This document shows positions 28,626-46,889 of a stretch of 64,000 bases of DNA, one piece after another. Every line of letters begins with the position of its first letter. Positions within the stretch are counted from its first letter, which is position 1. The stretch comes from Verrucomicrobiales bacterium (GTDB lineage Bacteria > Verrucomicrobiota > Verrucomicrobiia > Verrucomicrobiales > DEV007). The stretch is taken from positions 1 to 64,000 of the forward strand of contig JAEUHH010000099.1 of the NCBI GenBank assembly GCA_016795505.1. Direction: 5' to 3'. The translations under genes were made by a program, and so were the position numbers. The notes under the pieces are model-generated. The model saw only the letters and a list, made by a program, of their open reading frames with translations. It did no database searches and was not told the DNA's origin.

Positions 28626-29393
28626 TCACTCCTTCGGGAGCATCGGCGTTTGGCTCGCATACCACTGGTCGAACTCCTCCGCCTCCACCACCCGCAGCGT
28701 GGCCGCCATCTGGGCGTGGCCTGCTCCGCACAACTGGGCGCACACGATGTCCCATTCGCCCGTCTTGGTCGGGACGAACCACATCGGAATCTCCCGGCCG
28801 GGCACGGCGTCCTGCTGGATGAACATGGGCACCAGAGCGAGACCATGGATCACGTCCTTGGAGGTGACCTGAATGATCACGGGACGCCCCTTCGGAATGA
28901 CAAGATCGTTGATCGTGATGAAGTCGTCCTTGGCATTCGGATCCTCGGAGACCAAGCCGATCGCATTCGTCGCAGCGGAGATCCGGAACGGGTCGGTCAA
29001 TCCGACCATCTTGTCGGCGCCGGCGTAGTGGAACGTCCAGCGGAACTGCTCACCGACCGCGCGAATGCGGAGGACATTCGGATCATCCTTCGGCATGTCA
29101 TCGACGCGCTTCGCCCACAGGGGATAGGCAAAGCCAAGCAGCAGCACCACTTCGACGATCACCACGCCGATCTCCAGATGGGTCGAGAAATGGGAGGTCA
29201 CACCGTGATACTGGGCCTTGGGCTGCTTTTTGGCCCGGAAACGCCAGAGGATGTAGACGAGGAACAAACCCCAGCCGACGGCGAGCGCGCCCATGAACCA
29301 ATGGAGCACGGCCAGCATGTGATTGCCGGCGGCCCCGTGTTCGGAGGCGACCTCGGTCATCCAGAGGGCATCGTTGATGGAATCGAAGTTCAT
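28626..29393 (-). CDS. coxB: Cytochrome c oxidase subunit II (CuA)
   Basis: 255 residues from ATG 29393. Two membrane helices (about 30-50 and 72-92) hold the N-terminus, followed by a periplasmic cupredoxin domain (about 105-245). The dinuclear CuA site is complete: H183 (VIHGLALVPM), then C218-x3-C222-x3-H226-x2-M229 in CAQLCGAGHAQM; the middle residue between the cysteines is Gln rather than the usual Glu, whose backbone carbonyl is the ligand. The aromatic electron-entry patch is QFRWTFHY. There is no fused cytochrome c domain, so this is an aa3 rather than caa3 layout. The signal for electron input must therefore come from separate cytochromes c encoded in the same cluster. Confidence 0.95.
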   Translation of the reverse strand: MNFDSINDALWMTEVASEHGAAGNHMLAVLHWFMGALAVGWGLFLVYILWRFRAKKQPKAQYHGVTSHFSTHLEIGVVIVEVVLLLGFAYPLWAKRVDDMPKDDPNVLRIRAVGEQFRWTFHYAGADKMVGLTDPFRISAATNAIGLVSEDPNAKDDFITINDLVIPKGRPVIIQVTSKDVIHGLALVPMFIQQDAVPGREIPMWFVPTKTGEWDIVCAQLCGAGHAQMAATLRVVEAEEFDQWYASQTPMLPKE

Positions 29394-29424
29394 GATCGGA
29401 AAGTGAAAACGAGAGAGTCGGGAA

Positions 29425-29649
29425 TCAATTCTGGGGCTGCGGGGCCATTTGGACGGCTTCCTCCTCGGCAAAGCGCCGGGCGCGCCGGGCCAGATAGACG
29501 ATGAAAGAGATGAAGCCACTCAGCACTGTGAGCAGGATGACCAGCATGAGCCCGACTGCGGCATTGGCGCCGGCCAACGAAGTCGGATCGGCACCCCAGC
29601 AGACGGAGCAGGCCAGCAATTCGGAGATGGGCAGGGCGGGCAGGTTCAT
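29425..29649 (-). CDS. Small membrane protein with CxxC, cluster member
   Basis: 74 residues from ATG 29649. The N-terminal segment MNLPALPISELLACSVCWGAD has a CSVC (C14, C17) just before a single hydrophobic helix (about 27-55, VGLMLVILLTVLSGFISFIVYLA), then a basic RRARRFAEEE tail. Orientation by the positive-inside rule places the CxxC in the periplasm. I know small proteins of this kind in oxidase clusters of Verrucomicrobia and Planctomycetes but no function. It lies five bases from the next small membrane-protein gene and 31 bases from coxB, so it is clearly part of the operon. A periplasmic CxxC makes a role in copper or thiol handling possible, which is only inference. Confidence 0.75.
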   Translation of the reverse strand: MNLPALPISELLACSVCWGADPTSLAGANAAVGLMLVILLTVLSGFISFIVYLARRARRFAEEEAVQMAPQPQN

Positions 29650-29874: not shown

Positions 29875-30219
29875 TCACCGGAGTGCATTCTGAATCGCAT
29901 CGAACGCCTCGGGAATCGGATCGAACAGCGCGAACAACGTCAGGGCCATGAGACCCAGGAAGAAGTAAAAGGTGAAGGTGAGGACCTTGTAAACGAGTCC
30001 CCGCTCATGATTCAGGTGCATGAAAATCAGCGCCACCAGGGAGCTTTTCACCGTGGCAATGATGAGACCCAGAACGACATCGCGCCACCCCATCACCGGG
30101 CCGAAGGGATGCCACCAGTGCGCGGTGAACACCGTCACCACGGTGAAGACAAACAGCGCCGCGCCCACCGCGACGTAGGATTTTTTGAGGCGATCGAGTT
30201 CTTCCTGTGAGGAGGCCAT
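29875..30219 (-). CDS. Cytochrome c oxidase subunit IV (prokaryotic COX4 family)
   Basis: 114 residues with three membrane helices (about 15-35, 45-68 and 80-102). The pattern GWRDVVLGLIIATVKSSLVALIFMHLNHER is the signature of the COX4_pro family: an ATVKA-like helix followed by FMHLxxE. This is the small subunit of aa3/caa3-type oxidases, a structural component without cofactors. It follows coxC by 63 bases. Confidence 0.88.
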   Translation of the reverse strand: MASSQEELDRLKKSYVAVGAALFVFTVVTVFTAHWWHPFGPVMGWRDVVLGLIIATVKSSLVALIFMHLNHERGLVYKVLTFTFYFFLGLMALTLFALFDPIPEAFDAIQNALR

Positions 30220-33828: not shown

Positions 33829-34563
33829 TCACTGGGCGGGCTGTCCGGTCTGGGGATCGACCTTGGCACCCGGCAGCATCGAATCCTCGGGAATGGCACG
33901 GAGACCGGCTTCATCCCAGGGTGTCGTCCTGTCCTTAAATTGCTCACGAGCGGCCTTGACCATCTCCGTGGTCACGATGCCATCTTCGCCCTCTTTGAGG
34001 GTGCCAAATTCCCGTCGGATGTAGGTCAACACCTGGGCCACCTTCTCGTCGCCGAGCGTGTCCCACGGGGCCATGATGTTGTTGTAGCCCACCCCATTTA
34101 CGGTGAACGGGCCACTGATGCCCTTCAGCATGATCGCCCCGAGACGAGTCGTGCCGCCATTGACCCACTCGGAGTCCTTCAGCGGCGGGAACAAGCCCGG
34201 CTGGCCGGCGCCGGCAGGCCCATGACAGGGAACGCAGTTGTTGTAGACCTTTTTGCCGTCCTTCATCCACTGATCGATCCAGGCCAGCTTTTCAGCAGCA
34301 GCGTCCCCACCGGCACCAGCAGGGCGCGGGTCGGGGCGATAGTACTTCGTCACATAGATGTCATCGCGGAATCCATTGCTGTAGGCGCCCAGATAGCCGG
34401 CACCCAGAATCAGAACGAGCGCGGTCAGGATCAGGGGACCGAAGGAAATCGGCTCCTTGCCAGTCGGCGGGAGCACCTTCTCACGGCGCACCGCATCATG
34501 CACATCCACCACGCTGCCGCCTTCGGCTTCGTAGTCGAGATTCTTGTCCGGGTTGTCGCTCAT
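33829..34563 (-). CDS. Membrane-anchored monoheme cytochrome c
   Basis: 244 residues. One membrane helix at about 42-60 (PLILTALVLILGAGYLGAY) after a cytoplasmic N-terminus. The periplasmic part has one c-type heme site VPCHG inside NNCVPCHGPAGAGQPGLFPPL; the distal Met is probably within NIMAPWDTL. The first 40 residues (VRREKVLPPTGKEPISFGP) and the position suggest a CcoP-like role, but only one heme is present whereas CcoP has two. Located between the CcoO-like gene (41 bases) and coxA (129 bases), so it may bring electrons from ACIII to CuA. Confidence 0.9.
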   Translation of the reverse strand: MSDNPDKNLDYEAEGGSVVDVHDAVRREKVLPPTGKEPISFGPLILTALVLILGAGYLGAYSNGFRDDIYVTKYYRPDPRPAGAGGDAAAEKLAWIDQWMKDGKKVYNNCVPCHGPAGAGQPGLFPPLKDSEWVNGGTTRLGAIMLKGISGPFTVNGVGYNNIMAPWDTLGDEKVAQVLTYIRREFGTLKEGEDGIVTTEMVKAAREQFKDRTTPWDEAGLRAIPEDSMLPGAKVDPQTGQPAQ

Positions 34564-34604: not shown

Positions 34605-35303
34605 TTACTGCGCCGGCGCCTCAGCCGGAGCCGCCTCGGCCACAGCGGGGCGGATCGAGGCGGGCAGTTTCGCATCCTTCCGGCGGGAAAGCAGGTAATC
34701 GACCAAAGCCTCGGCTTCCGGCGTCGGCACCACGACAAATCCTTCCTCGGGGGCGAATTTGCCCTCCAACTTCAGCGCAGCATCCCGGCCGTCAGCAGGA
34801 ACGAGCCGATAGAGATGGCGGAAACCCGGCATGATCGATTCGTGGGTGTTAGCCCGCGGGTTGTAGAGCTGGATATGCAGTTTCTCACGATCCGTCAGAC
34901 GAGTGCCGACATTGGCCAGATCCGGGCCGATCCGCTGGTAGCCCAACTGGGCATAGCCCTCACCGATGTAGTCTTCCGGACGGGTCTCACGAGCCAGCCC
35001 CTCTTCTTCGCGACCACCCCAGCCGGGACGCCACATGTCGGGGCCTGCATAGGTGGGACGCACCATCTGGGTGTGGCAGTAGGCACAGCCTTCACGACGG
35101 TAGATCTCCGCACCGTAGTCGCTGGCACCCGCCCGCACCATGTTCGGGTCGGGATAGGCGACAAAGCCGGCTTCGTCGCTTTCGGCATAGGGCACCGGGG
35201 CCGCACTCGACTGCTTCACATACGGCAGGAGCACGAGGAACAGCCACGGAAAGCCGAAAGCCACGCCCAGCCAGGAAAAGAGTCTCCAGAGATCGTTTCT
35301 CAT
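34605..35303 (-). CDS. CcoO/FixO-like membrane-bound cytochrome c
   Basis: 232 residues from ATG 35303 (a TTG 12 bases upstream is in frame). N-terminal helix about 8-28, then a monoheme cytochrome c domain: EIYRREGCAYCHTQMVRP is the CcoO heme site, followed by the CcoO signature GYAQLGYQRIGPDLANVG and distal-Met candidate IMPGFRHLY. Close to the subunit II of cbb3 oxidases, which passes electrons to subunit I. Here its neighbour (35361-36845) is a CcoN-like protein that has lost the active-site ligands, so this protein may instead relay electrons between ACIII and the aa3 oxidase. The C-terminal 30 residues are an Ala/Pro/Glu tail. Confidence 0.88.
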   Translation of the reverse strand: MRNDLWRLFSWLGVAFGFPWLFLVLLPYVKQSSAAPVPYAESDEAGFVAYPDPNMVRAGASDYGAEIYRREGCAYCHTQMVRPTYAGPDMWRPGWGGREEEGLARETRPEDYIGEGYAQLGYQRIGPDLANVGTRLTDREKLHIQLYNPRANTHESIMPGFRHLYRLVPADGRDAALKLEGKFAPEEGFVVVPTPEAEALVDYLLSRRKDAKLPASIRPAVAEAAPAEAPAQ

Positions 35304-35360
35304 CGCTTGTTTCAAGAAGTGCCCGTGTCTGTTGCTTGCCAGTGGTGCGAAAAGTCAGTC

Positions 35361-36845
35361 TCAGTGATGCCCGCCGGCACCCGCCAGCGCGACCGCCTCT
35401 TCCGCGCTGCCCACGGAACCCGGCTCGGCATGGATGAGCGTCGGTCCGGCCGAGCGGCGTCCGCGACCGATGAACATCAAGGCCAATTGATAAAAGAAAC
35501 CCAGGTTCGCCGCCGCAATCAGCAGCCAGGCGACGATCCGGCCCACGATCCAGCCGTTGGCCACCTCGACGGAGCGGACGAACGCCTGATCCCACTGGTT
35601 CATCTGACCAGCCTGGGCAAATCCACCCACCAGCATCGTCAACACCACCGTGCCAATGCCATAGGTGGAAAACCAGAAATGGCCACGGATCAGGGTCGGC
35701 GACGGCCATTCACAACCAGTGATGCGCGGGACGATGTAGTAAATCGCCCCAAAAGCCGCCATGGAGAAGAATCCGTAAACCGCCAGCGTATCCAGACCGA
35801 CCACGAAGTGGCTGAACTGGAGCACCTGGCTCAGGCTGAAAAAGGACGACACCCCCGACAGCACTGCGTATGCGAGGAACATCAGCACCCCGAACAGGGT
35901 GAAACGCAGCGTCGGGCTGTATTCCCACAGCTTCTGGCGCCCGCGGAGGGTGAACCAGAAATTCGCACCCGCCGCCACGACCGCGACGATGATGAAGATC
36001 GAGGCAGCTCCGCTCACCGCCGGGATCCAGGCCGGGAAGGGACCGCCGACATAGCGTTGAAATCCCGTCCAACCGGCCAGAACGGCCAGCGCCCAGAAGC
36101 CCACCTGGGCCAGCGGATAGCTGTGGATCGGGCGACCGGCGATCTTCGGAACCAGATAGTAGGCCGAAGCCAGCGCCACGGGGGCAAACCAGAAATAGAT
36201 CAAATTGCTCATATACCAGGCATTGATCCCGGTGCTCATGGTCGCCGCACCCTCGTCGCCGACCAGCAGATTGGCCGTGGCGAAAATCCACGGGAACCAC
36301 AGCGCCGCCCCGATCAAATACATCTCCGAGACGTACACCTCGCCAGCCCGACGGGCGCGGAACATCGGGATCAGCCACAAAGTGACCATCAGGTAACCGA
36401 TGAAAAGCAGCGGAGCCACCCAGACCGGGAAATCCAGCCAAGGCATTGAGCGCCCCAGACCGGCCCACACAGTGATCACCGCCACCGCGACGCCCGCATT
36501 CCACAGATGGCCGGCGACGATGACCGTCACCGGGTTCTTCAACTCGTTCCGAGTCAGTCGGGCCATCAGCCAGATCATCACGCCGAGCCCCGCCTGCATC
36601 GCCCATCCGTAGACGAGGGCGAGCATGTGAACGGGGAAAAGCCGGCTGTATCCCAGCCACGGGCAATCCTCCCACAGCGTCGGGACCCGGAGCTTCAGCC
36701 CGCTCAGGAAGCCCAGCAAGGTCGCCACGAACAACCAGGCCGCCGCACTGGTGAAGAAAAACAACACCGGATACCGCACCGAGCGGTCAATCGCCGCGCG
36801 TTCGCGAATGTCTTCAGGTGTGGCTTGGTTCAGGTCGAGACTCAT
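35361..36845 (-). CDS. CcoN-like (cbb3 subunit I) protein lacking active-site ligands
   Basis: 494 residues, about 12 membrane helices, clearly of the cbb3 subunit I family by helix order and motifs such as YLVPKIAGRPIHSY, YIVPRITGCEW and the early heme helix SRLFPVHMLALVYGW (H73). Positions where CcoN binds the catalytic site are changed: Y-G-H-N (CuB His) is YMSN at 211-214; the GPHH pair of CuB ligands is TGFQ at 260-263; and the G-H-V-H heme-ligand motif is GLDT at 350-353. So the CuB site and the heme b3 ligand are gone, and the second low-spin ligand too. Oxygen reduction is not expected. It is co-transcribed with a normal-looking CcoO-like gene (57 bases), suggesting a structural or proton-handling role. 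Family members with altered ligands exist (NO reductase types), but those keep His ligands. Confidence 0.88.
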   Translation of the reverse strand: MSLDLNQATPEDIRERAAIDRSVRYPVLFFFTSAAAWLFVATLLGFLSGLKLRVPTLWEDCPWLGYSRLFPVHMLALVYGWAMQAGLGVMIWLMARLTRNELKNPVTVIVAGHLWNAGVAVAVITVWAGLGRSMPWLDFPVWVAPLLFIGYLMVTLWLIPMFRARRAGEVYVSEMYLIGAALWFPWIFATANLLVGDEGAATMSTGINAWYMSNLIYFWFAPVALASAYYLVPKIAGRPIHSYPLAQVGFWALAVLAGWTGFQRYVGGPFPAWIPAVSGAASIFIIVAVVAAGANFWFTLRGRQKLWEYSPTLRFTLFGVLMFLAYAVLSGVSSFFSLSQVLQFSHFVVGLDTLAVYGFFSMAAFGAIYYIVPRITGCEWPSPTLIRGHFWFSTYGIGTVVLTMLVGGFAQAGQMNQWDQAFVRSVEVANGWIVGRIVAWLLIAAANLGFFYQLALMFIGRGRRSAGPTLIHAEPGSVGSAEEAVALAGAGGHH

Positions 36846-36880: not shown

Positions 36881-37516
36881 TCACTTGGCAGGCGCGGCCG
36901 GAGCCGGAGTCGCAGGCGCAGCCGGTGCGGGAGTCGCAGGCGCAGCCGGGGCGGGAGCCGCAGGCGCAGCCGGGGCCGGAGTCGCCGGTGCAGCCGGGGC
37001 CGGAGTCGCAGGTGCAGCCGGGGCCGGAGTCGCAGGTGCAGCCGGGGCCGGAGTCGCCGGTGCAGCCGGGGCCGGAGTCGCCGGTGGAGCCGGCGCGGGA
37101 GTCGCTGGTGCGGCCGGTGCGGGAGCCGCCGGTGGAGCCGGTGCGGGAGTCGCAGGTGCAGCCGGGGCCGGAGTCGCAGGCGCAGCCGGAGCCTGGCTTT
37201 GTTTCATGAACGTCGGCGAACCTGGGACGATCAATTCGGTCTTGGCGGCTTTCTTGCCCTTCAGCGTTTCGAGCGTTGCGGGCAGCGCCTTCTGGATCGC
37301 CTCGGGAGCCAATGCTGTCGCCTGGGCCGCGCGGACCTCGACCAGATTCTTGGCGCGCTCCTGGGAACGCTCCGCCCAGCCGGGTTCCACGACCTCATGC
37401 GGTCCGGCCACCTTCAGGGCCAGCCACAGAACGGCGCCGAAGCTGACAAATGCCAGCAATCCGGCCCAGAAAGCCCGGAATCGATTGGTGGCGGTGTCTC
37501 CAGGGTGCTCGCTCAT
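36881..37516 (-). CDS. Membrane-anchored protein with Ala/Pro octapeptide repeats
   Basis: 211 residues from ATG 37516. A single helix (about 15-38, FWAGLLAFVSFGAVLWLAL) is followed by a short helical domain (about 45-105) and then a C-terminal low-complexity tract of about 100 residues made of APAAPATP-type octapeptides. At the DNA level this is a 24-bp tandem repeat between about 36890 and 37195, which should vary in copy number. Pro/Ala tracts of this kind span or anchor to the periplasm or cell wall in other proteins. It sits between actF and the CcoN-like gene in the operon; preceding the gene is repeat cluster D. Possibly a linker that holds the ACIII and oxidase complexes together, which is only inference. 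Confidence 0.8.
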   Translation of the reverse strand: MSEHPGDTATNRFRAFWAGLLAFVSFGAVLWLALKVAGPHEVVEPGWAERSQERAKNLVEVRAAQATALAPEAIQKALPATLETLKGKKAAKTELIVPGSPTFMKQSQAPAAPATPAPAAPATPAPAPPAAPAPAAPATPAPAPPATPAPAAPATPAPAAPATPAPAAPATPAPAAPATPAPAAPAAPAPAAPATPAPAAPATPAPAAPAK

Positions 37517-37527
37517 GGGTGGAAATT

Positions 37528-37593
37528 CGATCAAAGAGGGTTCGGTCGGAGAAGCAACAGGGTTGGTTCGGAGGACAAAGAGGGTCTGGTCGG
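37528..37593. repeat. 22-bp repeat cluster D (3 units) inside the respiratory operon
   Basis: Three 22-bp units (37528-37549, 37550-37571, 37572-37593) read in the minus direction, in the 97-base gap between actF and the Ala/Pro repeat gene. As both genes run on the minus strand with short gaps on either side, these units should be transcribed in the mRNA. Confidence 0.87.
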
Positions 37594-37613: not shown

Positions 37614-39116
37614 TCAGTTCACCACGTTGAGGGATTCGTCCAATCGCGGGTCGCGGCAGGGATAGAGGCTGCCTTTGCCAAGGAAATGCATCAGGCCAAA
37701 TCCAAAGAGGCCAGCCACGGAAATCCACGCCAGAAGATCGGTCCACACCGCCCCGGGAATGATGAGGGACTCTCCGTGGGTCAGCGAGGGTCCGCGCTCC
37801 GGAATGATGATCCAGTAAACGTCGAAGAAATGCATCAGCAGCGTCCAGCCGGCGATGGCACAGATAACAGTCGGCTTTTTCTTGAAGCCCTGGATCAACA
37901 GGATCGTGAACGGCACAAAGAAGTGGCCGATGACGAGGAAGGCGATCGAGTAGGGATTCCAGAAGTCGGTGTTGCGGGTCAGGTAGAACTTCGTCTCCTC
38001 GGTGATGTTGGCATACCAGATCAGGAAGAACTGGGAGAAGGCGATGTAGGCCCAGAAAATGGTGAAGGCGAGCAGGAGCTTACCCATGAGGTGGTAGTGC
38101 TCCATGGTGATGACCTCCTTCAGGTAGCCAGCCCGCCTGAGCAGGGTGACCAGGATGATGAGGAACGCCATCGAGTTCAGCGCGGCTCCGGCGAACAGGT
38201 AAACGCCCCACATGGTCGAGAACCAGGCGTAATCGAGAGCCATCAGCCAGTCGAACACGAGGAAGGTCCACGCCGTGGCAAACAGCGGGAGGAAGCCGCA
38301 GGCGGCGCGGCGCATGCGCCGGAAGAACTTCGGATCGCCCGTCTCGTCGCTCTTGATCGACCAGTGGCGGAGGAAATAGATGATACCGAACAGGGCGGCG
38401 CCGTAGAAGAAAAAGCGGAAGTGCCAGAACGCCTCGTTCAGGTAGCCCTTCTTCTTGTAAAGGAGCACGTTGGAGTGCTTGAAGTGCTCGTACTTGAGCT
38501 GCTCCTTGATTTCTTCGTCAGAGCCCAGCGCGGCTTTGGCAGTCTCGAGACGGCCCTTGGCAGCGGCGAGTTCGGCATTCAGATACACCTTCTCCCCTTC
38601 GGTCGCCTTGGCGAGCGCGGCGGCATTTTCCTTTTCCATCGCCAGCAGCGAGGTCTCCGCCGCCTTGAGGTTCTCGGTCAATTGGGCCCGACGGGCAGCC
38701 AGCTCATGCTCGGCATGCTCGACGGCTTCGGCCTTGATCTTGGCGCGCTCGGGGAACCACTCCCAGAGGGCGTCGCGGAAGCCGGGCGCGAGGAGCGGGA
38801 GCGCGAGGACAAAAATGACGATGACGACGCTGCCGAGATTCTCCATCAAACGACGGATGACAATGCCCCAGCCCGAATTCGAGGCGTGATGAAGCAGAGT
38901 CCAAAAGATGCCACCGACGGTGAGGCTGAGGAAATAGATGAGCGCAAACAGCCAGGAGTAGGCCATGGCACCGCGGAATTGCTCACCGGAAGCCGAAGCG
39001 ATGATGAAAAACAGCACCGCCGCCCCGGCGCCGCCCATGAGCAGCACCCATTTGAGCAAGCCGGGGGAGAATTTCTCGCCCTGCGCGTAGTGATCTGCGT
39101 TTTTCAGTCCAGCCAT
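37614..39116 (-). CDS. actF: Alternative Complex III subunit ActF with coiled-coil insertion
   Basis: 500 residues from ATG 39116; related ActF proteins are about 400-430. It is a membrane protein of the NrfD-like type with ten or so helices; conserved segments include FSLTVGGIFWTLLHHASN-like text (YFLSLTVGGIFWTLLHHAS), FDWLMALDYAWFSTMWGVY and EHYHLMGKLLLAFTIFWAYI, then GHFFVPF. ActF helps anchor the complex and may carry a proton path. Between the third and fourth helices there is an insertion of about 80 residues (about 125-205) that is a charged alpha-helical coiled coil (HELAARRAQLTENLKAAE, AAAKGRLETAKAALGS). Its ACIII neighbours are all present upstream; 52 bases separate it from actE. 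Confidence 0.93.
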   Translation of the reverse strand: MAGLKNADHYAQGEKFSPGLLKWVLLMGGAGAAVLFFIIASASGEQFRGAMAYSWLFALIYFLSLTVGGIFWTLLHHASNSGWGIVIRRLMENLGSVVIVIFVLALPLLAPGFRDALWEWFPERAKIKAEAVEHAEHELAARRAQLTENLKAAETSLLAMEKENAAALAKATEGEKVYLNAELAAAKGRLETAKAALGSDEEIKEQLKYEHFKHSNVLLYKKKGYLNEAFWHFRFFFYGAALFGIIYFLRHWSIKSDETGDPKFFRRMRRAACGFLPLFATAWTFLVFDWLMALDYAWFSTMWGVYLFAGAALNSMAFLIILVTLLRRAGYLKEVITMEHYHLMGKLLLAFTIFWAYIAFSQFFLIWYANITEETKFYLTRNTDFWNPYSIAFLVIGHFFVPFTILLIQGFKKKPTVICAIAGWTLLMHFFDVYWIIIPERGPSLTHGESLIIPGAVWTDLLAWISVAGLFGFGLMHFLGKGSLYPCRDPRLDESLNVVN

Positions 39117-39168
39117 GATCCGTGGTGAAAGAGTGGGGTGTCGGTCTGTCGGTGGGTCCGGAAGGGTC

Positions 39169-39771
39169 TCATTTGCTGCCACCCGCCGCCTGCATGGCGC
39201 GGACGTAAGCCGTGATCGCCCAGCGGTCGGCCGCGGGGATGGCGCCATTGTAGGGGCCCATCAGGCCCTTGCCGTGGGTGATGGTCCAGAAAATCTGTCC
39301 ATCGGGCATGGCCACGACGCGGGGATCGAGAAGGTTGGCCGTCGGCGGGATCGCCCAGTATTTCGAGACGATGCCCTGGCCATTTCCGGAGGTGCCGTGA
39401 CAGGGAGTGCAGAAGATCTGATAACGCTCCTGACCGCGCTGAAGCAGCGCATTGTCGACCGTGACTTCGGCCGGCATGCCGTCGCCGTAATAATCGCCGA
39501 AAGTTCCGTTCAGGAAGTACTCGCTCTCCGCCGGCGCCGAATCAGGGGAAGTCGGGAAGGTGTAGCCGATCGGCACGGTGTTCGCGACGGGCTTGCGGGC
39601 TCCCTGGCCGTTTTCGAAGAACTCGCTGGGCTTCTGGAACTTCAGTTTGTCCTGCCAGTCCATGTCATTGAAGACATAAAGCGGCGGCTTGGAGAACTTT
39701 TCACCGCGGGGGCCGATCCCCACGGCGAACATCACCGCCACAGCAAAGAGAATGAGAAAAAACCAGCGCAT
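39169..39771 (-). CDS. actE: Alternative Complex III subunit ActE, monoheme cytochrome c
   Basis: 200 residues with an N-terminal signal/anchor (MRWFFLILFAVAVMFAVGIG). One c-type heme site CTPCH in YQIFCTPCHGTSGNGQGIVSKY, with a distal Met candidate in TITHGKGLMGPYNGAI. This is the ActE cytochrome that accepts electrons from ActA/ActB and passes them to the oxidase or a soluble carrier. Gene order actD-actE-actF is as in other ACIII operons; 45 bases from actD. Confidence 0.93.
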   Translation of the reverse strand: MRWFFLILFAVAVMFAVGIGPRGEKFSKPPLYVFNDMDWQDKLKFQKPSEFFENGQGARKPVANTVPIGYTFPTSPDSAPAESEYFLNGTFGDYYGDGMPAEVTVDNALLQRGQERYQIFCTPCHGTSGNGQGIVSKYWAIPPTANLLDPRVVAMPDGQIFWTITHGKGLMGPYNGAIPAADRWAITAYVRAMQAAGGSK

Positions 39772-39816: not shown

Positions 39817-40374
39817 TCACGCATCGACCCGCTCGATCGCCTTGGCGCCGATGGACTCGAGGAATTCAGTCGTCTTGTCTTCCCGGAACTTGGGATCCTT
39901 CGATTCGATCACGAGGAGGAATCCGTCGTCGGAGAATTTCTTGAAAAGGGCCGATTCGAACAGCGGATGATTCCACCGCGGCAGCAGCACGAAGATCAAC
40001 AACCCGAACAGGGTGGCGAAGGCCGAAAAGAGAATGGTCAATTCGAATGTGACCGGGAAAAAGGCCGGCACCGTGTTCAGGTTGGTCGGCTTGCCCTGCA
40101 CGATGGTGGGATAGAGATTCACCTGGGTGAAAAACTGAAGGATCAGCGCGGTGGTAAAGCCGGTGACGCCACCGCAGAGGACCACGCCCGAAAGCCAGCT
40201 CTTTTTCAGCCCCATGGCATGATCCATGCCGTGGATCGGGAAGGGCGTGTGCACATCCCAGCGCTTGAACCCGGCGTCGCGGACCTTTTCGGCAGCGTGG
40301 TAGAGATCCGACGCGCTGTCGAACTCGGCCACGATCCCGAAGATCTGCTTGGTGCTGGCGGTAGTGGTGCTCAC
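39817..40374 (-). CDS. actD: Alternative Complex III subunit ActD (DUF3341)
   Basis: 185 residues, DUF3341 family. An N-terminal soluble segment with IVAEFDSASDLYHAAEKVRDAGF and the family signature RWDVHTPFPIHGMDHAMGL precedes two membrane helices (about 60-82 and 103-130) and a soluble C-terminus that again contains a DGFLLVIE-SKD strand. ActD has no cofactor and holds the ActC/ActF membrane core. It lies 61 bases after actC. Confidence 0.94.
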   Translation of the reverse strand: MSTTTASTKQIFGIVAEFDSASDLYHAAEKVRDAGFKRWDVHTPFPIHGMDHAMGLKKSWLSGVVLCGGVTGFTTALILQFFTQVNLYPTIVQGKPTNLNTVPAFFPVTFELTILFSAFATLFGLLIFVLLPRWNHPLFESALFKKFSDDGFLLVIESKDPKFREDKTTEFLESIGAKAIERVDA

Positions 40375-40435: not shown

Positions 40436-41869
40436 TTACTTGGACCTGCGGCCTTCGCGCAGTTTTTTCCAGTCGTGGTAATGGGGGTCGGCCTGCGGCA
40501 ACACGCCTTTCACTTCGGCGATGGCTATGACCGGCAGGAAGCGCAGGAAGATGAGGAACAACGACATGAAGAGGCCGAACGATCCCGCGAACATCAGTTT
40601 CTCAACCCAGGTCGGGCTGTAAAGACCCCATTGACCAGGCAGGAAGTCGACCGACACCGAGGTCGGGATGATGACGAAGCGCTCGAACCACATCCCGGCG
40701 TTCACGAAGTTCGCGATGATGAAGACGATCCAAAGATTTTTCCGCGCCTTCTCGAACCAGAAAACCTGGGGCGCGATCACGTTGCAGAAGAACATGCAGT
40801 AGTAGGCCCACGTGTATGGCCCACTCAGGATGCGGAGATGGAAGGCATCGGTCTCATACTTGTTGGCGCTGTAGTAGGAAATGAACAGCTCCATGATGTA
40901 GGCATAGCCGACGATCGTCCCGGTGAGCAGGATGATTTTCGCCATGTTGTCGATGTGCTTCATCGTGATGAGGTCCTGCAGACCGTAGATGAGGCGGCAG
41001 GGCAGCATCAGGGTCAGCACCATGGCGAATCCGCCGAAAATGGCGCCTGCCACGAAATAGGGCGGGAAAATGGTAGTGTGCCAACCGGGAACCACCGACG
41101 TGGCGAAGTCGAACGACACGACCGAGTGGACCGAAAGCACCAGCGGAGTCGACAGCGCCGCCAGAAGCAGGTAGGCCATTTCGTAGTGCTGCCACTGACG
41201 GTTGCCGCCGCGCCAACCGAGGGCGAAGAAGCCGTAAGCCAGCTTGCGAAACTTGGTCCTGGCCCGATCCCGCAGGGTGGCGAGGTCTGGAATCAACCCG
41301 ATGTACCAGAATATGACGGAAACAGTGAAGTAGGTCGAAACGGCAAACACGTCCCAGAGCAGCGGGCTCTTGAAGTTCTGCCAGATGGCATTGGAATTCG
41401 GCACCGGAGCGAGGAACCACACCATCCAGAAACGACCGACGTGGAAGCCGGGGAAAATTCCGGCGCACATCACCGCGAAGAGAGTCATCGCCTCCGAAGC
41501 CCGGTTCACCGAGGTGCGCCACTTCTGGCGGGTCAAGAACAGAATGGCGGAAATGAGCGTTCCGGCGTGGCCGATACCGATCCAGAACACGAAATTCACG
41601 ATGTCCCAACCCCAAGCGACAGGATGGTTCATCCCCCAGATCCCGACACCGGTCGAAACGAGGTAAACGAGGGTGAAAATCAGACACCCAGCCAGAATTG
41701 CCGACGGGATAAACAGAAACCACCAACCCAAGGGCTGACGATTCTCCACAATGCCGCAAATCCGCTCCGTGATCCAACTGAAGGACCGGTTGTTCAGCAC
41801 AAGCGGCTCGCGTGCCACTCCCGGAGCTTCGGAGGGATGCACGCCTTGGTCTGTCGTTCCTGTGGGCAT
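40436..41869 (-). CDS. actC: Alternative Complex III subunit ActC (NrfD/PsrC-like)
   Basis: 477 residues, ten-helix NrfD-like quinol-binding membrane subunit. Characteristic pieces are [31 protein letters not shown] (with the His/Gly quinol-site region), [38 protein letters not shown] and [23 protein letters not shown]. In ACIII, ActC oxidises menaquinol near ActB's [3Fe-4S] cluster and may hold one proton path. Close spacing to actB (91 bases) and actD (61 bases). Confidence 0.95.
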
Positions 41870-41960: not shown

Positions 41961-44900
41961 TCAGTGCATGTCAGCGGTCACTTTGCCGACTCGGTCGGCA
42001 CCGGGCATCTTGGGATTCGGGTTCTTGATCCGCGCCAGATAACTGGTGCGGGGACGCGTGCCAATGTATTTCAGCAGTTCGTACTGTCTGGGGTGGCCAT
42101 CGTGACCGTCGCCACCCATCTTGCCTTTGACCTTGGTCACCAGATCATCAGCATTTTTCCAGTTGCCGAAAACAATGGCACCAGTCGGGCAAGCGTCCTG
42201 ACAGGCCGTGGTCACGGAATTCGCGGGCACCTGAACCTTGTCCGAGTCGCGGGCGGCCACTTTGGCAGCCACCTTCGCAGCACTGAGGCGCTGGACGCAA
42301 TAGGTACACTTCTCGATCACACCACGCATGCGGACCGTGACGTTCGGGTTCTTCTGCAACTGCTCACTGGTGCGGGCGCGACCATTGGCCGGAGCCAGCG
42401 GACCCCAGTAAAGATTGTCGATGGAACGCTTGTTGTAGTCGAAGTAGTTGAAACGACGAGCCTTGTAGGGGCAGTTGTTCGCGCAGTAGCGGGTGCCGAT
42501 GCAGCGATTGTAGGTCATCGCATTGAGACCGTCGCCAGTGTGAACCGTGGCATTGACGGGGCAGACCGTCTCACAAGGCGCCGCCTCGCACTGCTGGCAC
42601 GCGACCGGTTGCGGGAGCATTTCGACTTGGTCATCATCCACGCGACGCTGACCGGGCCGACCGGCTTTTTCGAAGTCCAGGCCCATTTCCGAAATCGTCT
42701 TCGCGTCGTAGGGCGACGAAAAATAGCGATCCATCCGGATCCAGTGCATTTCACGACCGTTGATGACCTGCTCCTTGCCAACGATTGGAATGTTGTTCTC
42801 GCTCTGGCAGGCAATCGAACACGCATTGCAGCCCAGGCAGGAATTCAGGTCCACCGCCATGGCCCACTGATGATCGGGATCGACCCGAAACTCATGACCG
42901 TCGATGGCCGGACCCTCGTTACGCTGATTGCGCTCGCTTTCCGGGTTCGCGTAATCCGGCCCCTCGTAAAACGTGACGTTCTCAGGAATGTGGCTGTCCA
43001 TCCCCTGCTTCCCGGCGAAGTCAGGCTTCTCCCGATACATGTCGACCGTGCCTTCGCGAACGATCTCGCGGCCTTCCATCGAGTAGTGCTCAGCCGTGAG
43101 CGCGAGCGGGTGTTTGCGGTCGGTTTTCTTCGCCGCCGCCCCGGAGAGGACAAACGGGGAAGCCACCGAGCGGAGCCCCCACACAGAAAAGCCAACACCC
43201 GTGGCGATGGAACCGAGGTCAACGGGCTCACCATCACTACCCTGCACATCGCCATAGTAACCCGCGGCGACCTGAATCGTGAAATCCGCCTGACCGGGAT
43301 TGATCAGCGCAGGCAATTGAACCGTGGCCCCACCGGCGGAAACCTCCACCACATCGCCATTCTCCACCTCCAAAGCCTCGGCGGTGGCGCGACTCATCAG
43401 GGCGGCATTGTCCCACGTCAGTTTCGTGATCGGATCGGCCGCTTCCTGCATCCAGCCGTTGTTCACGAAACGGCCATCCCAAGTCGAGGAACCGGGCACG
43501 ATTTCAACTTCGATCGAGCCTGCGTAGGGGATCGGAGCAAAGGTGAAGGCGCCCAAGGCGGCACCGACTTTGGCCGCATCGACCGCGGCATTGGCCACCG
43601 GGAAGGCGGAACCCTTCGCAAAACCATCGCGCACCGTGAGACGCCAGTCACCACCGGGAACTGCCGCCGCGAAGGTGGCCTTCACCGCCGCCAATGCAGG
43701 CGAATCTGGCTCAGGCTGTCCCGGAATAGGCGCCGCCGGAGCGGGGGCATCAGCCGGAGCCGGCTCATTGAGCAACGAAAGCAGGAACTCCACCTCCGAC
43801 AGCCCACCGTTCATCGGATGGATCATCGGCTGCTGGACGGAATACATCCCGGTCTCGGAGCGCCAGTCGCCCCATGACTCCAGATAATGCGCCGCCGGCA
43901 CATGCCACGAAGCGGAAAGGGAGCTCAGATTGCGACGACCACCGAAATGCACCACCGTCTCTACCTTGGCGAGCGCGTCAGCCCACTTCAGATCCGCCGG
44001 CGCATCGGCCGCCACGTCGGATTCGGTCATCAGGAAAAGCGTCTTCACCTTCCCCTCGCCCACCGCCTTGGCCAGGTCAGCGAGGCCGGGCAGCGACTTC
44101 GCGCCGGTTTGAACCAGCGAAATCGAAGCCGACTCACCCGCGAAAGCTCCCAGCGCGGCATTTACCGCCGCCACCAGCAAATGCACTTCGGTCGGCTGAC
44201 GGGAACCCGCCACCACCAGCGCCTTGCCCTTGGCAGCCACCAAGTCGGCGGCGCACTCGCGGATCCACTCATTATTGAAAACTGCCGCATTGATCTTCGC
44301 CAAAGCCGGTTGCAGCGCCGCAGTCAGAGCCGCATCGCCCGCACCCTTGGCCACTTCGGCTGCCAGCAGCACCGCCACCTGCGGAATCTGGCTCGAAGCC
44401 AACCGGTAGCGATGATCCGCCATTCCACCCGTCAGGGTGAAAGCCGCCTCCACCGCGTAGAGACGATTCATTTCCTTACCCTCGTCAACCGCCTTGCGGC
44501 CGCGGGCAAATTGCATCGCCGGGTCCTCGCCAACCTTGTCGAGACCGAGGAAATCGGCATCCAACGACAAGATTCGGGTCGCCCGGTCAAAACGCGGCAC
44601 CTGAGCCACACCCTCGCCGAAAAGCTGCCCCTCGGCAGCGGAACGACCGGCCGGAATCAGCGCCTCGTAGCGATAGACCTTGGCACCGGCAAACTTCGCC
44701 ACCACCTCGCCCATCAGGCGATCACGCGTCGGCGCATAGCCAGCCCCAACCAGGAAAGCCACCCCATCACCCTTGGCCGCCTTGCGGAACGCGGAAAGAA
44801 ATTCACCCTCGAATGCCGCCGCATCGGCCGCCTCACCCTTTTTCAGATACTCCCGAGAGCGATCCGGATCGTAGAGATCCAAAATCGAAGCCTGGGTAAA

Positions 44901-45320
44901 AGCATCGGAACCTCCGGACACCAGCGGATGCAGCTTGTTGCCATCCACCCGGGTCGGACGCCCTTCGTGAGTCGTGACCACCAGAGGATCGCAGCCGCGA
45001 CCACTCAGCCGGCCCTTGGCGCTGGCATAGTAGAGCGCCTTCCCCGGCACGACCCATTCGACATGCTCGTTGTAGGGCACCAAGTGGCGCACCGGACGAT
45101 GGCACCCCACCGCACCGAAGCCAGCCAGCGCAGTCGCCGCGCCCATCAGCTTCACAAAGTGACGGCGCGACACGTCGTCCAACTCCAGCTCGGCAGCGCC
45201 CTGCGGGAACTCCCGCTCGAGCCAGCCCCGAAATTCGGCGGAATTCTCCAGTTCACCCAGGCTGCGCCAATACTGACGGCCCGTTTCCCGAGATTCCGGA
45301 TGTTGCCACTGACGTTTCAT
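41961..45320 (-). CDS. actB: Alternative Complex III subunit ActB (molybdopterin-like plus Fe-S domains)
   Basis: 1119 residues, fusion of a molybdopterin oxidoreductase-like domain (B1, about 75-720) and an NrfC-like iron-sulfur domain (B2, about 780-1080). A Tat leader with SRRHFVKLMGAATALAGFGAVGC opens the mature part, so it is exported folded. The B1 domain in this family binds no molybdenum. B2 carries four cysteine groups: CLGCNACSIAC; CQQCEAAPCETVCP; CIGTRYCANNCPYKARRFN; and CTYC with CQDACPTGAIVFGN, enough for three [4Fe-4S] and one [3Fe-4S]. ActB takes electrons from quinol at ActC and delivers them to the hemes of ActA. The front 50 residues (KRQWQHPESRETGRQYWRSL) are the MoCo/4Fe4S TAT leader type. 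Confidence 0.96.
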   Translation of the reverse strand: MKRQWQHPESRETGRQYWRSLGELENSAEFRGWLEREFPQGAAELELDDVSRRHFVKLMGAATALAGFGAVGCHRPVRHLVPYNEHVEWVVPGKALYYASAKGRLSGRGCDPLVVTTHEGRPTRVDGNKLHPLVSGGSDAFTQASILDLYDPDRSREYLKKGEAADAAAFEGEFLSAFRKAAKGDGVAFLVGAGYAPTRDRLMGEVVAKFAGAKVYRYEALIPAGRSAAEGQLFGEGVAQVPRFDRATRILSLDADFLGLDKVGEDPAMQFARGRKAVDEGKEMNRLYAVEAAFTLTGGMADHRYRLASSQIPQVAVLLAAEVAKGAGDAALTAALQPALAKINAAVFNNEWIRECAADLVAAKGKALVVAGSRQPTEVHLLVAAVNAALGAFAGESASISLVQTGAKSLPGLADLAKAVGEGKVKTLFLMTESDVAADAPADLKWADALAKVETVVHFGGRRNLSSLSASWHVPAAHYLESWGDWRSETGMYSVQQPMIHPMNGGLSEVEFLLSLLNEPAPADAPAPAAPIPGQPEPDSPALAAVKATFAAAVPGGDWRLTVRDGFAKGSAFPVANAAVDAAKVGAALGAFTFAPIPYAGSIEVEIVPGSSTWDGRFVNNGWMQEAADPITKLTWDNAALMSRATAEALEVENGDVVEVSAGGATVQLPALINPGQADFTIQVAAGYYGDVQGSDGEPVDLGSIATGVGFSVWGLRSVASPFVLSGAAAKKTDRKHPLALTAEHYSMEGREIVREGTVDMYREKPDFAGKQGMDSHIPENVTFYEGPDYANPESERNQRNEGPAIDGHEFRVDPDHQWAMAVDLNSCLGCNACSIACQSENNIPIVGKEQVINGREMHWIRMDRYFSSPYDAKTISEMGLDFEKAGRPGQRRVDDDQVEMLPQPVACQQCEAAPCETVCPVNATVHTGDGLNAMTYNRCIGTRYCANNCPYKARRFNYFDYNKRSIDNLYWGPLAPANGRARTSEQLQKNPNVTVRMRGVIEKCTYCVQRLSAAKVAAKVAARDSDKVQVPANSVTTACQDACPTGAIVFGNWKNADDLVTKVKGKMGGDGHDGHPRQYELLKYIGTRPRTSYLARIKNPNPKMPGADRVGKVTADMH

Positions 45321-45357: not shown

Positions 45358-46128
45358 TCAACGGTGACAAGCCGCGCAGTCCTGCGGCGGATTCACCTTC
45401 CACAAATCCTTCAAATAAGCTCCCATGGCCTCCTGGCTCCACTCCTTGCCCTCATGGCCCGCCTTCACCTCGGCCACCGGCTTGCCAGCCTTGTCCGCCA
45501 CGTAGGCGTAGAAAGCCTCGCGATCCTTCTCGTCCATGCCGTGGGCCGACCAGTCGAGATTGGTGATCTGATCGAGCGGACGCAGATGCGACTCCACATT
45601 CCGGTGACAATCCAGACAGAAGCTCATGCTCAGAGGCTTCTCGTGGCTCACGACCTCCATCTCATTGACCTTGCCGTGACACTCCACACAACTCACCCCA
45701 CGATTCACGTGGGCCGAGTGATTGAAATACGCGTAGTCCGGCGTCTCGTGGATCTGCACCCACTGGATCGGCTGGCCCGTGTACTTCTCGTAATTCGGAT
45801 CCATCGCCTGGCGCAGCGGCTCCAGCTTCGGGCTGTCCGACTTCACCTTGCCCGGCCCGTGGCAGTTCCAGCAGACCTGCGCATTCGGGATGTTCGAGTG
45901 CGACGAATTCTCCACATGACTGTGGCAATAGCGGCAGTCCATGCCGTTCTGCCCCACGTGCAGCGCGTGGTCAAAAGGGATCGGTTGCTGTGGCTGATAT
46001 CCCACCCGCGTGTATTTCGGGGTGAAAGAGTACCAGATCACCGCAATCGCAAGCGTGCCGATACCGCCCAGACCAATCAAGGCCTGCACCGGCAACAAGT
46101 TAAGCCAACGTGGAAAAATGTTCCCCAT
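45358..46128 (-). CDS. actA: Alternative Complex III subunit ActA, pentaheme cytochrome c
   Basis: 256 residues from ATG 46128, with a membrane helix near the N-terminus (LPVQALIGLGGIGTLAIAVIWYSF). Five CxxCH sites are visible: CRYCH, CWNCH, CVECH, CLDCH and CAACH (the last in QDCAACHR at the very end). ActA is the first gene of known ACIII operons and relays electrons from the iron-sulfur clusters to ActE. No promoter could be fixed in the roughly 107 bases between it and plsC. It opens the 22-kb cluster; the next gene, actB, starts 37 bases downstream. Confidence 0.96.
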   Translation of the reverse strand: MGNIFPRWLNLLPVQALIGLGGIGTLAIAVIWYSFTPKYTRVGYQPQQPIPFDHALHVGQNGMDCRYCHSHVENSSHSNIPNAQVCWNCHGPGKVKSDSPKLEPLRQAMDPNYEKYTGQPIQWVQIHETPDYAYFNHSAHVNRGVSCVECHGKVNEMEVVSHEKPLSMSFCLDCHRNVESHLRPLDQITNLDWSAHGMDEKDREAFYAYVADKAGKPVAEVKAGHEGKEWSQEAMGAYLKDLWKVNPPQDCAACHR

Positions 46129-46235
46129 TTGAGATTCGATCGGCGCTAGTAAAGAGCTTGTGAAAAATTTCACAAGCGGATTTCTCAGAAAAAATTTACG
46201 ACCCCTCCCCCGGCCCGGAAACGCCCCCGGAGAAA

Positions 46236-46889
46236 TCAATTTCCGCCTTCGGCAGGCGACTCATCCTCCGGCAGTTTCAGCGCCGCGATGGCCTCCATGG
46301 CCCGGTCGCTGAGCGCCTGATACAGCTCCTTGCCCGAGAGCCCGGAGGACTCCAGCAGGTGGTTCAAATCCAGCAGATCCCCCACCACCAGAGTGAGCCG
46401 CTTCGGCCAGGGAAAAGACGCCCCCCGGGGCAGCGCCTCGTAGGCACCATACAGCCGCACCGGCAGCACCGGCACCCGGGACTTCGCGATCAGCATCCCG
46501 ATGCCCTGCGCGCCTTTCTCCTTGAGCTGGCCATCCAGCGTGCGCTCGCCCTCGGGGAAGATCAGCACCTTCTCACCCTGCTGGACCAGTTGCAGGATGC
46601 GCTTGATCGTGCTCAGTTCCGGCCGCGCCTGGTCCACCGGGATCGCATTGCAGTGCGTGTAGGCCCATTTCGCCGCCGGATTGCTGAACAGCGTCTTGCG
46701 CGCCATGTAGTGGATCGGCCCCGGGAACGCCGAGCCGATCATCGGCGGATCGAGAAAGCTCGTGTGGTTCGCCACCACCAGACAGCCGCCCGGCACCGCC
46801 AGTTTTTCCCGATGGATCACCCGCCGGCGGAAGTAAACCGCCGCCACCAGCCGGGACATCGTGTAGCCCACTCGATACCAGAACGTCAT
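46236..46889 (-). CDS. plsC: 1-acyl-sn-glycerol-3-phosphate acyltransferase
   Basis: 217 residues. The acyltransferase motifs are present: NHTSFLD with H42 and D47 (HX4D) and FPEGERT (111-117). An N-terminal helix likely anchors it in the inner membrane. PlsC adds the second acyl chain to lysophosphatidic acid, forming phosphatidic acid for phospholipids. The gene runs in the same direction as the ACIII cluster, 107 bases upstream of actA, but is functionally unrelated. Confidence 0.93.
   Translation of the reverse strand: MTFWYRVGYTMSRLVAAVYFRRRVIHREKLAVPGGCLVVANHTSFLDPPMIGSAFPGPIHYMARKTLFSNPAAKWAYTHCNAIPVDQARPELSTIKRILQLVQQGEKVLIFPEGERTLDGQLKEKGAQGIGMLIAKSRVPVLPVRLYGAYEALPRGASFPWPKRLTLVVGDLLDLNHLLESSGLSGKELYQALSDRAMEAIAALKLPEDESPAEGGN

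Follow-up and report, generated by a model that had tools for sequence, protein, structure and literature searches.

Repeated loss of metal ligands in an ACIII-linked CcoN homologue of Verrucomicrobiota: a probable membrane anchor for cytochromes c

What does an oxidase subunit do once the residues that hold its metals are gone? The question is raised by a 64,000-nucleotide stretch of DNA from a Verrucomicrobiales bacterium (contig JAEUHH010000099.1; hereafter the window), in which a homologue of CcoN, the catalytic subunit I of cbb3 oxidases, is encoded between the genes for ACIII and those for an A-type oxidase. All of these genes lie on the minus strand in the order ActA-B-C-D-E-F, a small transmembrane (TM) protein, the CcoN homologue ("window CcoN" below), CcoO-like and CcoP-like cytochromes, CoxA, C, D, B, CtaA, CtaB and Sco, with the six act genes in sequence on one strand.

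45358..46239, minus strand: ActA, pentahaem cytochrome with five CxxCH motifs and without a sixth haem domain
41961..45320, minus strand: ActB, iron-sulfur subunit
40436..41869, minus strand: ActC
39817..40374, minus strand: ActD
39169..39771, minus strand: ActE, monohaem cytochrome with one CxxCH
37614..39248, minus strand: ActF, from position and homology to operon relatives
36881..37534, minus strand: small single-TM protein with a Pro/Ala-rich tail, between actF and ccoN
35361..36845, minus strand: window CcoN, a CcoN-like 12-TM subunit of 494 aa without the CuB, haem b3 and second haem b ligands
34605..35315, minus strand: CcoO-like membrane-anchored monohaem cytochrome c (CAYCHTQM); FixO PF02433, E 4e-14; alternative ATG at 35303
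33829..34563, minus strand: CcoP-like monohaem cytochrome c (CVPCH); PF00034
31774..33735, minus strand: CoxA, intact A-type oxidase subunit I; PF00115, E 2e-132, and TIGR02891
30283..31710, minus strand: CoxC, from position and homology
29875..30219, minus strand: CoxD, subunit IV-like
28626..29519, minus strand: CoxB, CuA subunit without a CxxCH haem motif

The reading frame of window CcoN (36845..35361, minus strand) runs uninterrupted for 494 residues, and its CcoO-like partner, identified by the FixO match, carries the c-haem motif CAYCH. A sequence-only reading of the window had described the gene as intact within an ACIII operon and the CcoO-like partner as keeping its haem; both statements hold, for the window and for its relatives. 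The small TM protein is a conserved companion of actF and ccoN, methanotrophs included; it ends in a Pro/Ala repeat in the window, as against a cytochrome c domain in four relatives (L037, L038, L055, L058). The window's genome is not short of haem-copper enzymes: on other contigs (C53:38273-39610 and C71:69550-70773) it also encodes a canonical CcoNO fusion that bears the ligands and a NorB of the cNOR type.

Profile and structure comparisons place window CcoN firmly in the cbb3 subunit I family, as the sequence-only reading had it. The protein passes the curated cut-off of the Pfam COX1 family (PF00115; E 6e-42, 144 bits against 34.8) and fails the equivalog cut-off of the narrower ccoN profile TIGR00780 (94 bits against 583). 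The nearest solved chains are the CcoN subunits of cbb3 oxidases 9g6b and 3mk7 (E ~1e-21). An AlphaFold2 model made with 37 relatives (pLDDT 92, pTM 0.92) has the CcoN fold, superposing on CcoN of 3mk7 with a Z of 45.4 and an r.m.s.d. of 2.1 Å over 443 residues. Z is lower for the nitric oxide reductase subunit NorB (39.8) and for A-type subunit I (~34). We also considered window CcoN as a NorB and rejected this, both on the lower Z and on the absence of the His ligands for the haems and FeB.

We assigned the ligand and active-site positions by alignment to the solved CcoN chains (9g6b, 3mk7) and to ligand-bearing relatives:

36627..36629, minus strand: codon of H73, first haem b ligand (TM2) and the sole ligand His left
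36204..36215, minus strand: YMSN (residues 211-214) in place of YGHN; CuB ligand 1 (TM6) is S213
36075..36077, minus strand: A257 in place of the active-site (cross-link) Tyr of TM7
36054..36059, minus strand: Q263-R264 in place of the CuB His-His pair (TM7)
35787..35798, minus strand: GLDT (residues 350-353) in place of GHVH, the haem b3 and haem b ligands (TM10)

Only one of the six metal-ligand His residues, H73, is therefore left in window CcoN. All three CuB ligands are replaced (S213, Q263, R264), the haem b3 axial His of TM10 is L351, and the second axial His of haem b is T353, so that H73 stands without its partner. The alignment agrees with the changes read from the sequence at 211-214 and 350-353 and with the retention of H73. 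The CuB pair, which had been read as TGFQ at 260-263, is one residue off and falls in GFQR at 261-264, with the His residues absent as described. The loss of the TM7 Tyr had been missed and adds to the five replaced His. Further Arg, Glu and Asn residues near the cofactors, invariant (100%) among ligand-bearing relatives, are altered as well (for example R to F70, N to L75, E to P135 and E to D138). We rejected misalignment or substitute ligands, as no other His has become conserved within the ligandless clade. We considered H346 of TM10 (QFSHF) as a new partner ligand and rejected it, as its presence is not coupled to that of H73 across relatives. Window CcoN is thus confirmed as an intact homologue of cbb3 subunit I that has lost its catalytic centre.

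This state is not peculiar to one genome. A strong homologue of window CcoN is present in 155 of the 190 genomes of the window's order; any match at all is found in 158, three of which match canonical CcoN only, and the genomes without a match belong mostly to one genus with small genomes. The arrangement throughout the order is ActABCDEF, small TM protein, ligandless CcoN, CcoO, CcoP. H73 is kept in ~84% of the order's sequences and is Phe in some close relatives of the window (L041, L044, L046, L048 and others).

Homologues also occur elsewhere in the class and beyond, including Planctomycetes (Gemmata sp. IIL30, Pan216), and wherever the flanking DNA suffices their usual place is directly after the act genes and before CcoO and CcoP. 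In other orders the protein in this same operon position has all six His and the Tyr. In a scan of named genomes, made on a narrower alignment since the alignment of all types was too divergent, 76 of 80 loci had the full ligand set, including those of Coraliomargarita sp. SDUM461004, Cerasicoccus maritimus, Geminisphaera colitermitum and MAGs labelled Chthoniobacter. The sequence-only reading had asked whether the ligands are always absent from ACIII genomes, and had named conserved His at the ligand positions, or poor conservation of the gene in related clusters, as grounds for abandoning its view. Conservation across the order disposes of the last of these. Conserved His at the ligand positions do exist, though in other orders and not in the window's lineage, where the ligands are absent order-wide.

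Two of the ligand-bearing genomes, G190 (99% complete) and G319 (98%), encode the ligand-bearing CcoN as their only COX1 homologue, and we found no cytochrome bd in either; the protein is therefore probably the terminal oxidase there. These genomes measure 1.3-1.7 Mb, and their loci (L064, L109) possibly represent sole ACIII-cbb3 respiratory chains. Every ligandless genome in our COX1 census has at least one further COX1 homologue somewhere.

The wider set of loci held several other arrangements. Away from the act genes, some Opitutales genomes (L072, L081) encode another type of CcoN, which bears the ligands and is accompanied by a dihaem CcoO. Six Planctomycetes clusters (L179, L183, L185, L187, L192, L197) encode an ActC of ~650-710 aa, and a separate ActD was not seen in them, which suggests an ActC-ActD fusion. 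In five loci, ActE carries seven CxxCH motifs. Two MAGs titled Akkermansia muciniphila (L148, L184) carry a ligand-bearing ACIII-cbb3 operon, which the small-genome genus of the window's order is without; these MAGs are probably mislabelled.

Both ligand states can be compared on one tree, which we built carefully from 86 sequences after removing the ligand columns. It implies five changes of ligand state, with four to six in bootstraps and at least three forced by well-supported branches; five is an estimate, as the long branches L070, L073 and L083 are loosely placed. All canonical CcoN sequences in the tree are ligand-bearing. A single origin of the ligandless state was recovered in 0% of bootstraps on the final tree. 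The full His set in other orders argues for repeated loss rather than for a family that never had the ligands. Intermediates exist: L175 has lost the TM7 CuB pair and the Tyr and keeps the haem His, while five loci (L059, L118, L174, L177, L186) keep the low-spin haem b His pair alone. Most sequences of the window's order keep only H73, and other ligandless relatives keep none. Read as a series, a direction that the states themselves do not prove, this suggests that O2 chemistry was lost first and haem b later.

The presence of a maturation gene tracks that of the ligands. In ligand-bearing operons, a small gene just upstream of ccoN, between actF and ccoN, encodes CcoS/FixS, and several of these small ORFs exceed the Pfam FixS cut-off. 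With a CcoS profile built from 15 copies and seeded from ligand-bearing loci, all 85 ligand-bearing loci proved to have CcoS between actF and ccoN (five of these repeat a genome reached via two collections, giving ~80 distinct operons), as against 1 of 78 ligandless loci. That one locus is L175, the earliest intermediate; the group that retains the haem b pair already lacks CcoS. Genome-wide, the profile found CcoS in seven of seven ligand-bearing genomes and in none of 18 ligandless ones, bar one marginal match (E 0.03). For window CcoN, this ACIII-type profile found no CcoS in the operon or genome-wide. Loss events are few, so this near-perfect association of ccoS and ligands is not significant on independent pairs (two for, none against, one tie). 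In R. capsulatus, according to PMC8267372, CcoN depends on CcoS to obtain haem b, b3 and CuB, and in its absence an inactive CcoNOQP complex still assembles (Kulajta et al. 2006, Koch et al. 2000, as cited there).

Loss of ligands has not been accompanied by decay of the gene. Pairwise dN/dS among closely related ligandless genes is ~0.02-0.27, similar to ligand-bearing genes, with dS saturated in many pairs (rows involving L026 were left out as an artefact of stripped X residues). Ligandless ccoN genes are under purifying selection. Catalytic and channel residues that are 100% conserved in ligand-bearing sequences are free in ligandless ones, and ~40 fold and surface sites are fixed in both alike. 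D20, P185, W186, E379, W380 and a C-terminal PTL are invariant in ACIII-linked CcoN of both kinds and not in canonical CcoN. The partners keep their haem sites, with the CxxCH motif of CcoO present in 86 of 86 ligandless loci and that of CcoP intact in 86 of 87; CoxB has a haem motif in none of 35, and ActA has five haems in all but one. The order-wide absence of ligands, together with the low dN/dS, indicates that window CcoN is neither a chance product nor a pseudogene.

The methanotrophs of the same class show the most eroded form. In the pMMO-bearing genomes (L074, L075, L076, L098), which we linked to published strains via pMMO and gene order, CcoN lacks the ligand sets of haem b, haem b3 and CuB alike; a model of one such protein (pLDDT 83) retains the fold, with TM-scores of 0.83-0.86 to CcoN. 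In one pMMO genome whose COX1 genes we checked (G225), the remainder comprise two coxA genes of A type, two genes of B type and a single NorB, with no ligand-bearing C-type oxidase found among them. Verrucomicrobial methanotrophs are repeatedly said to carry a high-affinity cbb3 oxidase beside ACIII (PMC8498564, PMC6688271, PMC8170126, PMC10205796, PMC11102522), and one paper links it to their growth at low oxygen (PMC6688271). Our results correct this genome-based inference: in the pMMO genomes examined, the CcoN of the published "cbb3" lacks the ligand set. In pMMO-bearing G251, a nitrous oxide reductase (nos) cluster sits between actF and the ligandless ccoN (L076:11479-18046), and the same nos placement is published for Methylacidiphilum caldifontis IT6 (PMC11102522).

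Overall, we consider it probable that window CcoN is a repeatedly inactivated pseudo-oxidase, kept as a membrane anchor that holds the CcoO and CcoP haems on ACIII and so passes electrons to aa3. Its ancestor would have been the catalytic subunit of an ACIII-linked C-type (cbb3-like) O2 reductase, encoded in the order ActABCDEF, small TM protein, CcoS, CcoN, CcoO, CcoP that is intact still in other Verrucomicrobiota and Planctomycetes. The O2-reducing centre and then the low-spin haem may have been lost, along with ccoS, when a different oxidase became able to take the electrons (in the window, the aa3 of this operon), and the 12-TM body may have been retained because it anchors CcoO and CcoP, hence two c-haems, to ACIII. 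ACIII and the oxidase are linked by gene position in the window and may associate physically, and we infer that the subunit is haem-free, docks on ACIII and lies beside an electron route from menaquinol through the ActB/ActA haems and the haems of ActE and/or CcoO/CcoP to CuA of the haemless CoxB and on to aa3. As both the sixth haem domain of ActA and a haem domain on the oxidase are missing, and two c-haem proteins are encoded in between, the simplest reading is that CcoN goes on holding CcoO and CcoP against ACIII and has ceded its own catalysis to aa3.

The sequence-only reading had placed the subunit between ACIII and aa3, which suits the window and its order and does not extend to all relatives. 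We ruled out that ligand loss is always paired with an adjacent aa3, as counterexamples occur both ways: CoxA lies downstream of a ligand-bearing CcoN in seven loci (L060, L120, L122, L124, L132, L134, L136), and many ligandless operons, among them the Opitutales type and L062, L071, L073 and L080, have no adjacent aa3 gene. A dedicated ACIII-aa3 bridge thus cannot be the general role, and in such operons electrons from the CcoO/CcoP haems may go to a soluble carrier or to an aa3 whose genes lie elsewhere. A broader claim we favor only narrowly: that stepwise loss of CuB, b3, haem b and the maturation factor turned the oxidase, in several lineages, into a lasting subunit of ACIII with no cofactors of its own and with a c-haem wire docked on it, so that ACIII would have nine or ten subunits (ActABCDEF, the small TM protein and CcoN, CcoO and CcoP) and the methanotroph "cbb3 oxidase" would not exist.

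The evidence bears unevenly on other explanations. That H73 persists in ~84% of the order is more than expected were it meaningless, and counts against a haem-free anchor. It would suit a cytochrome-b-like membrane relay in which H73 and a non-canonical second ligand still hold one low-spin haem b, and the five relatives outside the order that keep both haem b His without CuB or b3 suggest that a relay stage may have existed. The second low-spin haem ligand is gone, however, no replacement His has become conserved, H73 is Phe in several close relatives, the methanotrophs have no ligand at all, and ccoS is missing even where the haem b pair survives. A relay through CcoN itself is therefore unlikely, and of the earlier "relay or scaffold" the scaffold is the better half. 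We regard as equally doubtful that the protein is a purely structural ACIII subunit, stabilizing ActC/ActF or oligomers, with CcoO and CcoP serving other acceptors such as soluble cytochrome c. Its place directly 3' of the act genes, even without an adjacent oxidase gene, fits this idea, and the residues invariant only in ACIII-linked CcoN suggest a shared partner; the idea does not predict that CcoO and CcoP, haem motifs intact, follow CcoN in essentially every cluster.

An enzyme still reducing O2 or NO through different ligands would explain the cbb3-type annotation of published methanotroph genomes (PMC8498564, PMC6688271, PMC10205796), but there is no conserved alternative set of His or Glu, and the Tyr, the proton-path and propionate sites and ccoS are all lost. 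These losses make such an enzyme very improbable. We know of no haem-copper reductase that functions without the His of TM6, TM7 and TM10. Least credible of all is a pseudogene in decay that persists through its linkage to the operon: the catalytic residues are indeed gone, but the frame is open across the order, dN/dS is low, ~40 fold and interface residues are invariant, and full-length genes persist in at least three independent lineages, a conservation that refutes it.

An anchor for CcoO and CcoP, as we propose, would offer a possible answer to how ACIII passes electrons to an aa3 oxidase that has none of the additional haem domains described in Flavobacterium and Rhodothermus. Within a single operon layout the relatives span the steps from working oxidase to dead scaffold, a natural series that was run independently at least three times, includes intermediates and is accompanied by loss of the dedicated maturation gene. 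It makes a non-catalytic role of an oxidase subunit testable. We found no description of a ligandless ACIII-linked CcoN in the open-access literature.

Known systems share parts of this arrangement. With the CcoN of cbb3 oxidases (3mk7, 9g6b), window CcoN has in common the fold, the 12 TM helices, the CcoO partner, the motifs on the side of the K-path (YYxVPK...RPxxSY) and H73; it differs in lacking five of the six ligand His and the Tyr, and in its monohaem CcoP, missing CcoS and ACIII operon. ACIII-cbb3 clusters of Opitutaceae and verrucomicrobial methanotrophs (Refojo et al. 2010, as cited in PMC8498564) have the window's order of ActABCDEF, ccoN, ccoO and a cytochrome c. CcoN was taken as working in the published reports, whereas here it is ligand-bearing or ligandless by lineage, and ligandless in methanotrophs. 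The ACIII-aa3 supercomplex of Flavobacterium johnsoniae and the ACIII-caa3 of Rhodothermus marinus (PMC8552683, PMC5928083) likewise join ACIII and A-type oxidase genes in one operon, with direct electron transfer presumed. In these, the final transfer from ACIII to the oxidase goes through a mobile sixth haem domain of ActA or a cytochrome c domain on the oxidase (PMC8552683); in the window, by contrast, ActA has five haems and CoxB none, and CcoN, CcoO and CcoP are encoded in between. The R. capsulatus CcoNOQP formed without CcoS is likewise a cbb3 complex that assembles without a working CcoN, though as a laboratory mutant rather than a natural, fixed state. In the cytochrome bd family, the CydA' subunit of CydAA' is reported to lack ligands. 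CydA' would thus also be a ligand-poor copy of an oxidase core that evolution has kept, on an unrelated fold and with other partners.
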